From Massilia sp. 9I (GTDB lineage Bacteria; Pseudomonadota; Gammaproteobacteria; Burkholderiales; Burkholderiaceae_D): a stretch of 64,000 nucleotides of DNA. The stretch is from NCBI RefSeq assembly GCF_902506415.1, contig NZ_LR733275.1, positions 383,651-447,650 of the forward strand, written 5' to 3'. A program made the translations under genes and the position numbers. Of the stretch, positions 13,716-34,477 are shown in pieces (position 1 is the stretch's first letter; the number at the start of each line of letters is the position of its first letter). Under the pieces are notes generated by a model. It was not told where the DNA came from. It saw only the letters and a program-made list of their open reading frames with translations, and searched no databases.

Positions 13716-13866
13716 ACCCGGATTTTACCGCAGTTGGCGACCGCCGCGAACATTCCAGTGGCATGCTCGGCAACAACACAATGTTGCCGCACGCGATGGC
13801 GCTTTCCTGCCACGGGCAGGACGATTCGAGAGATATGGAAGGGTAAAACAGGAAGGAAAGTAAAGA

Positions 13867-13962
13867 GGCGAGCCTGATCTGCGGCACTTGCGGTGAACGG
13901 CTTTGGCTGCTTCGTTCCCGACCTGACCAGGTAAACCATGCCGCAATGCGCAGGGGCCCGCC
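13867..13962 (-). ncRNA. ffs: 4.5S signal recognition particle RNA (bacterial small SRP RNA)
   Basis: On the minus strand a self-complementary RNA of about 96 nt begins GGCGGGCCCC and ends GGCTCGCC, so the two ends pair. The apical part contains the SRP signature: GGTCAGGTCGGGAACGAAGC, then AGCCAAAGCC, matching the tetraloop and the symmetric and asymmetric loops that bind Ffh. The ends are estimated from end pairing and from the -10 box six to seven bases upstream; a T-rich stretch follows the 3' end. Its place just upstream of dnaX is common in Betaproteobacteria. Confidence 0.93.
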
Positions 13963-14779: not shown

Positions 14780-16264
14780 TCAAATACCCAGCTGGCCCCA
14801 CAGGTCGTCCACCCGCGCCTTCACTTCCGGCGTCATCGCGATCGGAGTGCCCCACTCGCGGTTGGTCTCGCCCGGCCACTTGTTGGTGGCGTCGATGCCC
14901 ATCTTGCTGCCCAGGCCGCTGATCGGCGAGGCGAAGTCGAGGTAGTCGATCGGGGTGTTGTCGACCATGACCGTGTCGCGGGTCGGATCGACCCGGGTCG
15001 TGATGGCCCAGATGACTTCCTTCCAGTCGCGCACGTCGACATCCTCGTCCACCACCACGATAAACTTCGTATACATGAACTGGCGCAGGAAGCTCCACAC
15101 CCCGAACATCACGCGCTTGGCGTGGCCGGCGTACTGCTTCTTCATCTGCACCACCGCCATCCGGTAGCTGCAGCCTTCCGGCGGCAGGTAGAAGTCGGTG
15201 ATTTCGCTGAACTGCTTTTGCAGCAGCGGGATGAAGACTTCGTTCAGCGCGACGCCCAGCACCGCCGGTTCGTCGGGCGGTTTGCCGGTGTAGGTCGAGT
15301 GGTAGATGGGGTCGCGCCGCATGGTGATGCGGTCGATCGTGAAGACCGGGAAGCTGTCCTGCTCATTGTAATAGCCGGTGTGGTCGCCATACGGGCCCTC
15401 CAATGCATGCTCGAAGCCGGACGGGTGGTTCGCATCCGGGTAGATATGCCCTTCCAGCACGATCTCGGCGGATGCCGGCACGCGCAGCTCGCTGCCGATC
15501 GCCTTGGTGAGCGCAGTGCGCTGGCCGCGCAGCAGTCCGGCGAACTGGTACTCGGACAAGGTATCCGGCACCGGGGTGACCGCGCCCAAGATCGTGGCCG
15601 GGTCGGCGCCCAGCGCCACCGCCACCGGATAGGGTTTGCCCGGATTGGCCAGCGCGTGCTCGCGGAAATCGAGGGCGCCGCCGCGGTGGGCGAGCCAGCG
15701 CATGATCACCTTGTTGCGGCCAAGGACCTGCTGGCGGTAGATGCCCAGGTTCTGGCGCTTCTTGTGCGGCCCCTTGGTAATCACCAGCCCCCAGGTAATC
15801 AGGGGCGCGATGTCGCCCGGCCAGCAGTGCTGGATCGGCAAGCGCGCAAGGTCGACGTCCTGCCCTTCCCAGACGATTTCCTGGCAGGAGGCGCCTTTCA
15901 CTTCTTTCGGCGCCATGTCCCAGACCGCCTTGACCAGCGAGCCCATGCCCATGATGTCCTTGAAGCCTTTTGGCGGCTCAGGCTCCTTCAGGCGCGCCAG
16001 CACGTGGCCGATGTTACGCAGCTCGGTCAGGCTTTCGGCGCCCATGCCCAGCGCCACCCGGCGCGGCGTGCCGAACAGGTTGCCCAGCACTGGAATAGAG
16101 TGTCCAGTCGGTTTTTCGAACAGCAGCGCGGGTCCTTCGGCGCGCAGCGTACGGTCGCAGATCTCCGTCATCTCGAGCTTGGGCGACACCGGTACGCCAA
16201 CGTGCTTGAGCTCGCCCATTTTCTCGAGCTGAGCCATAAAGTCCCGCAAATCTGAATATTTCAT
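14780..16264 (-). CDS. ubiD: 4-hydroxy-3-polyprenylbenzoate decarboxylase UbiD
   Basis: 494 residues, matching UbiD length. Family segments visible: [17 protein letters not shown] at the start, [18 protein letters not shown], the prFMN and metal-binding stretch [45 protein letters not shown], and the C-terminal [15 protein letters not shown]. UbiD removes the carboxyl group of 4-hydroxy-3-polyprenylbenzoate in ubiquinone synthesis using prenylated FMN made by UbiX, which is not in this window. The ATG at 16264 is preferred over an adjacent TTG; no clear Shine-Dalgarno precedes either. It is divergent from the transglycosylase leader. Confidence 0.97.
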
Positions 16265-16396
16265 CAAGTTTTGATCGTTATCTCGTCAGTAGAAGCTTGT
16301 TCAAGGCACCATGCCAAGTAGCTGATTTAGCAAGACTTTTCAAAATTTAGGCTTGGCAATCAGAACTAAAAGTAATAAGAGCGGATCGTGCTAGGG
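16265..16396. other. AT-rich divergent upstream region of ubiD
   Basis: This stretch is much richer in A and T than the surrounding genes and must hold the ubiD promoter, reading leftwards. Several TTG-rich and TAAAT-like hexamers occur but none has a convincing spacing, so I do not name one. No gene is visible. Confidence 0.4.
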
Positions 16397-16425
16397 TTGA
16401 CTTGGTATAAAGGAGACACTAGAAT
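16397..16425 (+). promoter_or_regulatory. Sigma-70 promoter for the transglycosylase leader
   Basis: TTGACT at 16397-16402 and TAGAAT at 16420-16425 are separated by exactly 17 bases. Each differs from consensus at one position. Transcription would start near 16432, about 313 bases before the gene's ATG. Confidence 0.65.
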
Positions 16426-16431
16426 CCGTCC

Positions 16432-16744
16432 TACTTGATGAGGCAGGCAAATCTTTCTGACATGATTTTAGCTGTTCTCATGCATTCACGGGGTCGGGGC
16501 CCCACATGACATTTTAAGGAGTGTTTTCACTGGGCGTCTGCCCAATCCCCCCGAGACAGTTGTTGAGCCACTGGTTCCACCCGCACGGGTTTCAAAGCAG
16601 CCAGCTGTAGCAAAGCAATGACGGCGTTAGTCGGCCGCACCGCGGCGACCTACGATATTTCTGATGCACGGCATTCAGTTACCCGACACAGCGTCCTTAG
16701 ACGCCGTGACAGGAGTTCTTTTTGCCGCGACAAAGGGGAATTCG
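16432..16744 (+). promoter_or_regulatory. Long structured 5' leader of unknown type
   Basis: Five potential hairpins can be read: TCATG/CATGA with an inner GGGG/CCCC (16478-16509), TGGGC/GCCCA (16531-16544), ACCC/GGGT (16579-16590), a strong TAG-TCGG-CCGC paired with GCGGCGACCTA (16628-16652), and GCGTC-CTTA-GACGC (16691-16704). An AAAGGGG Shine-Dalgarno precedes the ATG at 16745. I compared the sequence by eye with the c-di-GMP-I, c-di-AMP, FMN and ZTP cores and found none. It may be an undescribed regulatory RNA or simply a long leader. Confidence 0.4.
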
Positions 16745-17656
16745 ATGATCCATCGTTTCATCACGAGCGCAAGGCTCGTGCACACCATGGCCAGCCAGCC
16801 AGTCACGTGGTCTTCCGCGAGCAAAGCGGCACGCGGTATGCTGAACACCGCACGCAACACCCTGACCGTATTCGGTCTCTCCGCAGTCGCGATGCTCGCG
16901 CTGCTGTACACCAACGAAGACGTCGCCAAGCGCGTCTCGGACGTGCTGGATCCCCAGCCTGAAATCGTCGCCGTGGCCCCTGCTGCCCCGGCGCCCAAAC
17001 TCGCGGACGTGGCCGATGCGGTAGAAACGCCCCACGCCGCCGCCCAGCATGTGGGCAACAGCAAGCAGCAGCAATGGGTGACCTCCTGGCTGAGCAAGCG
17101 CTACCGCGTCGCCGGCGACGCCGCCAACATGCTGGTCTCGACCGCCTACATGACGGCGCACGAGGTCAAGCTGGACCCGCTGCTGATCCTGGCGGTGATG
17201 GCCATCGAATCGGGCCTGAACCCCTTTGCCGAGAGCGCCATGGGCGCCAAGGGCTTGATGCAGGTCATGGCCAAGGTCCACCACGACAAGTTCGAGGAAG
17301 TGGGCGGCCAGCAGGCGGCCCTGAATCCGGTCGCCAACATCAAGGTCGGCGCCCTGATCCTGAAGGATTACGTCAAGCGCACCGGTTCGGTCGAAGGCGG
17401 CCTCAAGACCTACGTCGGCGCGGCCGACATGGAAAGCGACTCCGGCTATGGCGCCAAGGTGCTGGCCGAGTACCAGCGCCTGAAGCAGGTGGCGCGCGGC
17501 CAGAAGGTCCCGACCACCAACGCGCCGCGCCCGGCAGCTCCTTCTCCGGTCCCGTCGACCATCATGGTCAAGCAGGATCCGGCCGAAACGCCGGCACCGG
17601 CGCCCGCTCCGGCCAAGCCGGAAAGCCACGGCACGGAAACGCTGGCGACCCTGTAA
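16745..17656 (+). CDS. Lytic transglycosylase (SLT domain), membrane-anchored
   Basis: 303 residues. An N-terminal segment with a hydrophobic stretch (TVFGLSAVAMLALLYT, about 40-56) anchors it in the inner membrane or acts as an uncleaved signal. The SLT domain (about 120-240) contains LILAVMAIESGLNPFAES, where Glu of IES is the predicted catalytic acid, then AMGAKGLMQVM, LNPVANIKVGALIL and a degenerate final repeat. The C-terminal 45 residues are Pro/Ala/Thr-rich. Lytic transglycosylases cut the MurNAc-GlcNAc bond in peptidoglycan with 1,6-anhydro product. It is monocistronic: its own promoter and long leader precede it and a terminator follows. Confidence 0.9.
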   Translation: MIHRFITSARLVHTMASQPVTWSSASKAARGMLNTARNTLTVFGLSAVAMLALLYTNEDVAKRVSDVLDPQPEIVAVAPAAPAPKLADVADAVETPHAAAQHVGNSKQQQWVTSWLSKRYRVAGDAANMLVSTAYMTAHEVKLDPLLILAVMAIESGLNPFAESAMGAKGLMQVMAKVHHDKFEEVGGQQAALNPVANIKVGALILKDYVKRTGSVEGGLKTYVGAADMESDSGYGAKVLAEYQRLKQVARGQKVPTTNAPRPAAPSPVPSTIMVKQDPAETPAPAPAPAKPESHGTETLATL

Positions 17657-17680
17657 GCCAGGGCACGATACTTTTCACGA

Positions 17681-17708
17681 AACCACCGCTGCGGCGGTGG
17701 TTTTTTTT
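17681..17708 (+). terminator. Rho-independent terminator after the transglycosylase
   Basis: A 9-bp perfect stem AACCACCGC/GCGGTGGTT with loop TGCG is followed by a run of eight T residues beyond the stem. It lies 24 bases after the stop codon. Confidence 0.92.
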
Positions 17709-17814
17709 CGCCCATCGTTCCGGGCCTCGCCCCAACGATTGAATACGCAGCCAAAAACGGACCCTTAAAATAGTCCCACTCCGTCTATGTAAAGCGCAAT
17801 CACTTACTCAAGCT

Positions 17815-18306
17815 ATGCAACTCCTATCTACTCGCTACATCTCTGCACTTGTAATCTTCCTTGCATCAGTCGACGCTGAGGCCGTAGGTGCTGGATGCGC
17901 ATCAGGCAAGCAGTCGCTGCGAGTTAAAATTTTTGGCGACAGTCGTGTCAGGTTGGGGAAGCCAGTCTCGCTCAACGTATTGGTCGAAAATACGGGTCAA
18001 AGTGAGCTCAAGCTGCCGAAGCCCATGGTGCCTCGTTACTACTGGCTGAGGTTTCAAGTAAGGAACGAGCAGGGGAAGGTTCTCGAGTGGCGAGGCCCGG
18101 AGCCAAAACTTCTCTATGAGAACGAACGGGTCTCTCTCTACCCGGAATACAGCTACGGCAGGTTCTTTAATAACCTGGAGGAAGCCCTCGACTTTTCAAA
18201 GCCGGGAAAGTACTCAATCCGAGCCACATGGGGAATCGGTCCAGATGGAAACTGTGCGTCGGGTGAGTATAGGTCGCGAGAATTCATACTTCACGTCATC
18301 CCATGA
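17815..18306 (+). CDS. Secreted protein of unknown function, Ig-like beta-sandwich
   Basis: 163 residues. A hydrophobic N-terminus (YISALVIFLASVDAEAVGA) looks like a signal peptide ending near Ala21-Ala26, so the protein is probably periplasmic. The rest alternates short strands with charged turns (KIFGDSRVRLGKPVSLNVLVENTGQ), the pattern of an immunoglobulin-like fold similar to BsuPI or CARDB-type domains, with two cysteines (in GCASG and NCASG) that may pair. I do not recognise a specific family. The gene is visibly less GC-rich than its neighbours and uses more A/T-ending codons, which hints at acquisition by transfer. The ATG lacks a clear Shine-Dalgarno sequence. Confidence 0.7.
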   Translation: MQLLSTRYISALVIFLASVDAEAVGAGCASGKQSLRVKIFGDSRVRLGKPVSLNVLVENTGQSELKLPKPMVPRYYWLRFQVRNEQGKVLEWRGPEPKLLYENERVSLYPEYSYGRFFNNLEEALDFSKPGKYSIRATWGIGPDGNCASGEYRSREFILHVIP

Positions 18307-34274: not shown

Positions 34275-34354
34275 GTAAAACTCCAATCGAGAGAAATACC
34301 AGGCAACAGACGTTGAGGCGCACGGCAGCGACGCGACACAATTGCCGGTTGATG

Positions 34355-34465
34355 GCTGCCCAGGCGAACGGCGGGTGACATCTCACGTTCCCCGGTGGTT
34401 ACCCACCTTTGCCATGCGCGCCGGAAGCTGGAGCGTACATGGTGTTTCGCCAGTTACGTGAGACG
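34355..34465 (-). promoter_or_regulatory. ZTP (pfl) riboswitch in the glyA leader
   Basis: Read on the minus strand the leader shows the ZTP aptamer. P1 is TCTCACGT (34463-34456) pairing with ACGTGAGA (34388-34381). The conserved ACTGGCGA stretch follows (34454-34447). A GGTGGGTAACCACC hairpin (34407-34394) leads into CCGGGGAACGTGAG. Then comes the pseudoknot/P3 element CGCCTGGGCA (34366-34357). Each part matches the published pfl consensus as I remember it. This class is known upstream of glyA, purH and folD. The 80 bases between it and the start codon have no clear intrinsic terminator, so control may be at translation or by other means. Confidence 0.88.
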
Positions 34466-34477
34466 TAAATTAGGACG

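Follow-up and report, generated by a model that had tools for sequence, protein, structure and literature searches.

The window – the stretch of 64,000 nucleotides from Massilia sp. 9I analysed here – contains a gene for a lytic transglycosylase that diverges from ubiD and is separated from its own promoter by a long leader (Table 1). No NCBIfam equivalog scored above cut-off against the transglycosylase. A strong hairpin with a T-run follows its stop codon (17680-17711, by eye), and the gene therefore looks monocistronic; further 3′ lies an ORF of 163 amino acids (17815-18306) without a Pfam match. Between 16200 and 16800 the promoter is the sole sigma-70-like site, shuffled sequences giving a mean of 0.5, and transcription would be predicted to begin near A16433, some 312 nt before the ATG at 16745. 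A sequence-only reading of this DNA had pointed to the promoter, the long gap and the AAAGGGG ribosome binding site, and all three are where it placed them. Elsewhere in the window, both on the minus strand, are a ZMP/ZTP riboswitch (34351-34467) and the bacterial small SRP RNA (13864-13962), the latter directly upstream of an ORF that we take to be dnaX-like.

Table 1. Features of the leader and its flanking genes, in window coordinates.
Feature	Position	Strand	Basis or remark
ubiD (4-hydroxy-3-polyprenylbenzoate decarboxylase), divergent	14780..16267	-	NF008175 above cut-off
Sigma-70-like promoter TTGACT-N17-TAGAAT	16397..16425	+	TTGACT 16397-16402, TAGAAT 16420-16425
Leader RNA, ~312 nt	16433..16744	+	Conserved DNA and structure; 5′ end inferred from promoter spacing
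P1, 5′ hairpin UGAUGAG...CUCAU, loop variable	16436..16484	+	RNAalifold, 90 loci; per-sequence folds, stem variants by eye
P2, GGGG/CCCC stem, loop UCGGGG 16494-16499	16490..16503	+	Pseudoknot 5′ strand in loop
P3, ACAUU/AGUGU, loop UUAAGG	16509..16524	+	Alignment A2 and motif counts
P4, UGGGC-GUCU-GCCCA	16531..16544	+	Alignment A2
Pseudoknot 3′ strand CCCCGA, partner of P2 loop	16549..16554	+	Per-sequence count
P5, three stacked parts UUGU/GCAA, GC/GC, CUGG/CCAG	16559..16619	+	Alignment A2
P6 hairpin	16625..16654	+	Alignment A2
U-rich tract AUAUUUCU after P6, terminator-like	16655..16662	+	Scan for hairpin with U-rich tail
P7 candidate, CGGCA 16669-16673 / UGCCG 16723-16727, enclosing P8 16689-16708	16669..16727	+	Many folds
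Ribosome binding site AAAGGGG	16732..16738	+	Sequence
Lytic transglycosylase, SLT domain, hydrophobic stretch N-terminal	16745..17656	+	PF01464, E 5.5e-15

The leader is one member of a set of conserved RNA counterparts in many related bacteria. Within the genus, DNA searches recovered the promoter and approximately 310 nt of leader in 60 of 62 genomes; within the family they recovered the leader in 280 of 392 genomes and 27 of 44 genera. An exact pattern for its core matched 66 named contigs: those assigned to a genus belong to Massilia, Duganella, Janthinobacterium, Rugamonas, Pseudoduganella and Herminiimonas, and the rest are unplaced bins of Oxalobacteraceae or Burkholderiaceae. NCBI taxonomy places Massilia and Herminiimonas in Oxalobacteraceae, as presumably the remaining genera are too. 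A covariance model (R1), built from 51 sequences of a MAFFT alignment that was not fitted to structure (A1), found the RNA in 28 of 40 further family genomes, all 40 of which encode the transglycosylase. This corresponds to 27 of 39 genera – the sample is slightly favourable, as g22 is represented by G182, its first genome lacking a DNA match, and g39 contributed two genomes – leaving 12 of the 39 without an R1 match; with five genera already positive, the leader is present in 32 of the family's 44. Three loci from family members without an R1 match (L230, L231 and L243) still have the promoter, together with a leader that is long and diverged, and in L231 fragments of the core are still recognizable by eye. 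Across the order R1 matched eight of 300 genomes, every one within the family; once the ten listed family members were removed the count was none of 290, under the stricter filters applied to large samples.

The RNA is tied to a single gene. The Massilia sp. 9I genome holds one copy. Of the 28 genomes matched by R1, 27 carry the RNA and the transglycosylase on a common contig and in the same orientation, and the remaining one (G068) has them on separate contigs. In all 181 loci collected – partly redundant, given that they overlap in organisms – the transglycosylase follows the RNA on the same strand, and among the genomes searched the RNA was never seen away from that gene.

Evidence that the conserved entity is a folded RNA came from comparative analysis. 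RNAalifold, applied to 90 loci, returned helices P1 to P6 before any model had been drawn, in agreement with the suggestion from the sequence alone that the leader holds at least five hairpins. In A1, 92.2% of cells are paired, as against 88.2% after shuffling and at most 51.2% in slid controls, and 14 pairs change on both sides against 8.8 in shuffles, none of 500 of which reached that number; a count of further pair types was equalled in 8 of 500. In a second alignment (A2), fitted to the model and hence biased toward it, pairing reaches 94.9%, as against 86.5% after shuffling, and both partners vary in 24 of 36 pairs, a figure again reached by none of 500 shuffles. Covariation among relatives had been proposed as the check on the RNA reading, and both alignments supply it in abundance. 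Helices P2 to P6, scored in A2, differ in how much they vary: P2 (99.7% paired, two of four pairs changing on both sides) and P4 (99.2%, four of five) are nearly invariant in pairing; P3 (97.4%) shows little variation; the three parts of P5 are paired in 98.4%, 93.2% and 90.1% of cells, with 10 of 12 pairs changing on both sides; and those of P6 in 99.1%, 85.8% and 86.7%, with 8 of 10. G-U cells outnumber A-C cells by 231 to 38, and the structured strand is therefore the sense strand.

A sceptic might hold that what is conserved is DNA or protein – regulator sites or a hidden reading frame – and that the RNA structure is incidental. The very high identity of the core would suit this explanation, as would the folding energy of the window's own sequence, which is no better than chance (z -0.88, with 20 of 100 shuffles folding equally well). 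The fold energy of one sequence is uninformative; the case rests on conservation and covariation, and bases that pair change together on both sides, which refutes the explanation unless the alignment-fitted counts are wrong. Furthermore, by eye, insertions and deletions do not come in threes. A short frame before P3 (AUG-ACA-UUU-UAA) was also discarded, its AUG being missing, by eye, from several distant genera. We consider conservation of this kind exceedingly improbable, and are highly confident that the window's leader is a functional structured RNA.

A notable element of the fold is a pseudoknot between the loop of P2 and a C-rich strand that follows P4. In A1 this helix is paired in merely 80.4% of cells; the low figure stems from a one-base shift in the alignment, and pairing was therefore recounted sequence by sequence. 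At least five base pairs can form in 76 of 78 leaders and at least six in 60, with variants that include UGGGGG/CCCCCA, GCGGGG/CCCCGU, UCCGGG/CCCGGA and UGGGGA/UCCCCA. Mean pairing is 5.76 between own partners, 5.61 between permuted partners and 3.71 for shuffled letters; own partners exceeded permuted ones in 300 of 300 permutations, by a small margin. The RNA conserved on the sense strand thus comprises a pseudoknotted domain (P2–P4), a long P5 and P6, set between a conserved promoter – TTGAC-N16-20-TA.... stands upstream in 74 of 78 diverse leaders – and the same gene.

The loop of P3 bears on how such an RNA might act. It contains GGA in all 78 leaders, AGGA in 76 and UAAGGAG in 52, and UAAGGAG is complementary to the 3′ end of 16S rRNA. 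One could therefore imagine a leader that works through translation and without premature termination: the fold, which in nearly all 181 loci ends 55-90 nt 5′ of the start codon, and so before the ribosome binding site, would set ribosome access, with the P3 loop serving as a standby site or decoy for the 30S subunit. By eye, however, no start codon lies within reach of the Shine-Dalgarno-like sequence of P3 (16514-16519); we found no conserved pairing partner for the actual ribosome binding site; and UAAGGAG is lost in 26 of the 78 leaders. We regard this arrangement as unlikely. Bridging of the P3 loop (AAGGA) to the ribosome binding site by CsrA was rejected, the genome being without CsrA: PF02599 has no match in it, and matches in each of the control genomes (Escherichia coli, Bacillus subtilis and Thermotoga maritima).

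The 3′ boundary of the fold offers a different clue. A hairpin of at most -7 kcal/mol followed by a tail with at least five U in eight occurs at P6 in 59 of 78 leaders where 3.8 would be expected, and at -12 kcal/mol in 56 against 0.9, the expectations coming from shuffled sequence and ignoring that P6 is a conserved helix anyway. Comparable sites are less constant, being found after P8 in 28 of 78 and after P3 in 24. The tail is interrupted by A and C, and a stricter terminator scan returned nothing on the plus strand at the leader. Associated with this region is a CUGAU or CUGGU motif (70 of 78 leaders), which reads UCUGAU in the window. A terminator at P8, using the U-run at 16719-16723 seen in Massilia, was set aside in view of its 28 of 78 occurrence and the frequent pairing of that run inside P7. 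P7 itself was rejected as a general helix (mean z -0.50, just 8 of 77 leaders having at most two of 50 shuffles as good); compensatory forms of it can be seen by eye in several genera. A search for a conserved antiterminator or alternative pairing found none, and one candidate, in which P4 (CGUCUGCC) would pair with the 3′ side of P6, shows no covariation by eye.

Comparison with catalogued RNAs yielded little at the window itself. Rfam 15 gives no gathering-level match near the leader, in line with the earlier remark that no core of a c-di-AMP or other known class is visible; at E values up to 10, 16250-16800 yields a lone, meaningless match of 8.3 bits on the other strand. The ydaO/yuaA c-di-AMP riboswitch is a leader of wall-lytic genes. 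In that respect it resembles the RNA described here, which, unlike it, is matched by no Rfam c-di-AMP riboswitch model. Nor is the leader 6S RNA (RF00013), which this genome encodes elsewhere (contig C7, 4554048-4554228). The YjbJ motif WRC-39-1 is a riboswitch candidate 5′ of a predicted lytic transglycosylase; as described in the accessible part of its report, it is restricted to Streptococcus and comprises two hairpins near the ribosome binding site, with no sign of kinship to our leader (PMC11109978). The open-licence literature, taken without supplements and in part, provided no description of this RNA in Oxalobacteraceae (PMC7011215, PMC4603805, PMC5760752, PMC8632094, PMC6429828).

Counterparts also exist outside the family. 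The transglycosylase orthologue adjoins ubiD in 8 of 26 loci beyond the family. R1 does not detect the outside counterparts: run on 39 sources, it gave two weak matches, both inside the family. In the small family f3 a differing leader is found in four of five genomes; in those four sequences (L280-L283), by eye, it has a hairpin-loop pseudoknot of its own, the loop GGUCUGG being complementary to a CCAGACC that lies beyond a hairpin of varying sequence. In f31, which is probably Burkholderiaceae, one leader was matched in 25 of 200 genomes, 20 of which were aligned: 16 have a GC-rich hairpin and UUUUU some 135 nt downstream of the -10 box, and 14 have, near position 275, a hairpin with a tract of the CUGAUUU or UUGAUUU type behind it, reminiscent of P6 and UCUGAU. 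Because of shared position, promoter and CUGAU motif, these leaders are likely to be homologous to that of the window.

Five Burkholderiaceae-like loci (L284, L288, L290, L293 and L298) are matched at gathering score, all five over the leader and promoter of the ubiD–transglycosylase gap, by RF02422, the Rfam family Bp1_738 or Bp1_Cand738_SIPHT (PMC3521395). The leaders of these loci are positional counterparts of ours; the model matched Burkholderiaceae-like loci only, and the window itself is unmatched by it at E values up to 10. In every case the match runs antisense to the transglycosylase, spanning the sense promoter, and in alignment the 3′ part of RF02422 is the complement of that promoter. 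From these alignments it seems that RF02422 has probably been modelled on the wrong strand.

A second counterpart, BTH_s13 of Burkholderia thailandensis, has been published as an expressed small RNA in the 5′UTR of BTH_I1527/SLT (PMC4035088). According to the accessible part of that report, species of 209-400 nt occur; the RNA is about 10-fold more abundant than the SLT transcript in kanamycin, in serum or in extracellular bacteria, is induced more than 3-fold by a mixture of antibiotics, is conserved in its genus, and was suggested by the authors to be a riboswitch (PMC4035088). It is thus a long leader directly 5′ of an SLT gene, co-transcribed with it and accompanied by separate short species; BTH_I1527 is a putative orthologue of the window's gene, and the account, so far as accessible, gives no structure model (PMC4035088). 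The original characterization of the locus, as a candidate for a cis-regulatory RNA not yet described or for a small RNA embedded in the leader, is supported, and no Rfam 15 family matches here; "undescribed" is nevertheless to be qualified, in view of a positional counterpart hit by an Rfam model on the opposite strand and of a published 5′UTR RNA of an SLT gene.

That a counterpart was published as a small RNA raises the question of whether ours is a stand-alone regulator acting in trans, extending from the conserved promoter to P6, with the transglycosylase merely read through. The strong promoter of its own, the conserved loops and the terminator-like P6 fit such an RNA; its constant company with the gene does not, and nor does the finding that within the genus conservation runs on past P6 as far as the ribosome binding site. 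We judge a stand-alone RNA quite improbable. Two marks of a structured cis-regulatory leader of the riboswitch-candidate kind are present, namely covarying structure on the sense strand and a constant link to the downstream gene; P6, terminator-like but passed over by the stricter scan, would be a candidate expression platform. Regulation in cis is favoured because the RNA always stands, in sense orientation, before this one gene, and a small RNA produced by processing or termination might well be identical with the cis leader.

The leader RNA, then, very probably controls the amount of transglycosylase made. Our preferred model, which we hold to be somewhat better than an even bet, is a structured cis-acting leader in which P1–P5 would form a sensor or fixed brake and premature 3′ ends would arise at P6, limiting synthesis of the enzyme. 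The parallel with BTH_s13 (PMC4035088) is the reason for favouring a leader with premature 3′ ends. In such a system P6 and the U-rich tract would generate those ends, so that leader RNA would be abundant and full-length mRNA scarce until the state of the cell favoured read-through; candidates for the releasing signal would be a small ligand, antibiotic or wall stress, ribosomes or a protein. On attenuation at P6 itself we are more tentative, placing it a little short of an even chance. More speculative still, and in our estimation doubtful, is an order-wide riboswitch-like class of Burkholderiales on the ubiD-neighbouring transglycosylase, in which a hairpin-loop pseudoknot that varies from family to family would sense the cell wall, antibiotics or translation and attenuate an autolysin, Bp1_738 being its wrong-strand shadow.

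Enzymes that cut the cell wall need restraint, and to our knowledge little RNA-based control of them has been described apart from the c-di-AMP riboswitches of Gram-positive bacteria. A single-copy leader, rich in covariation and tied to one transglycosylase, makes RNA control of such an enzyme testable in harmless laboratory bacteria; at the same time, the result for RF02422 suggests that a catalogued Rfam family of small RNAs was built on the wrong strand.
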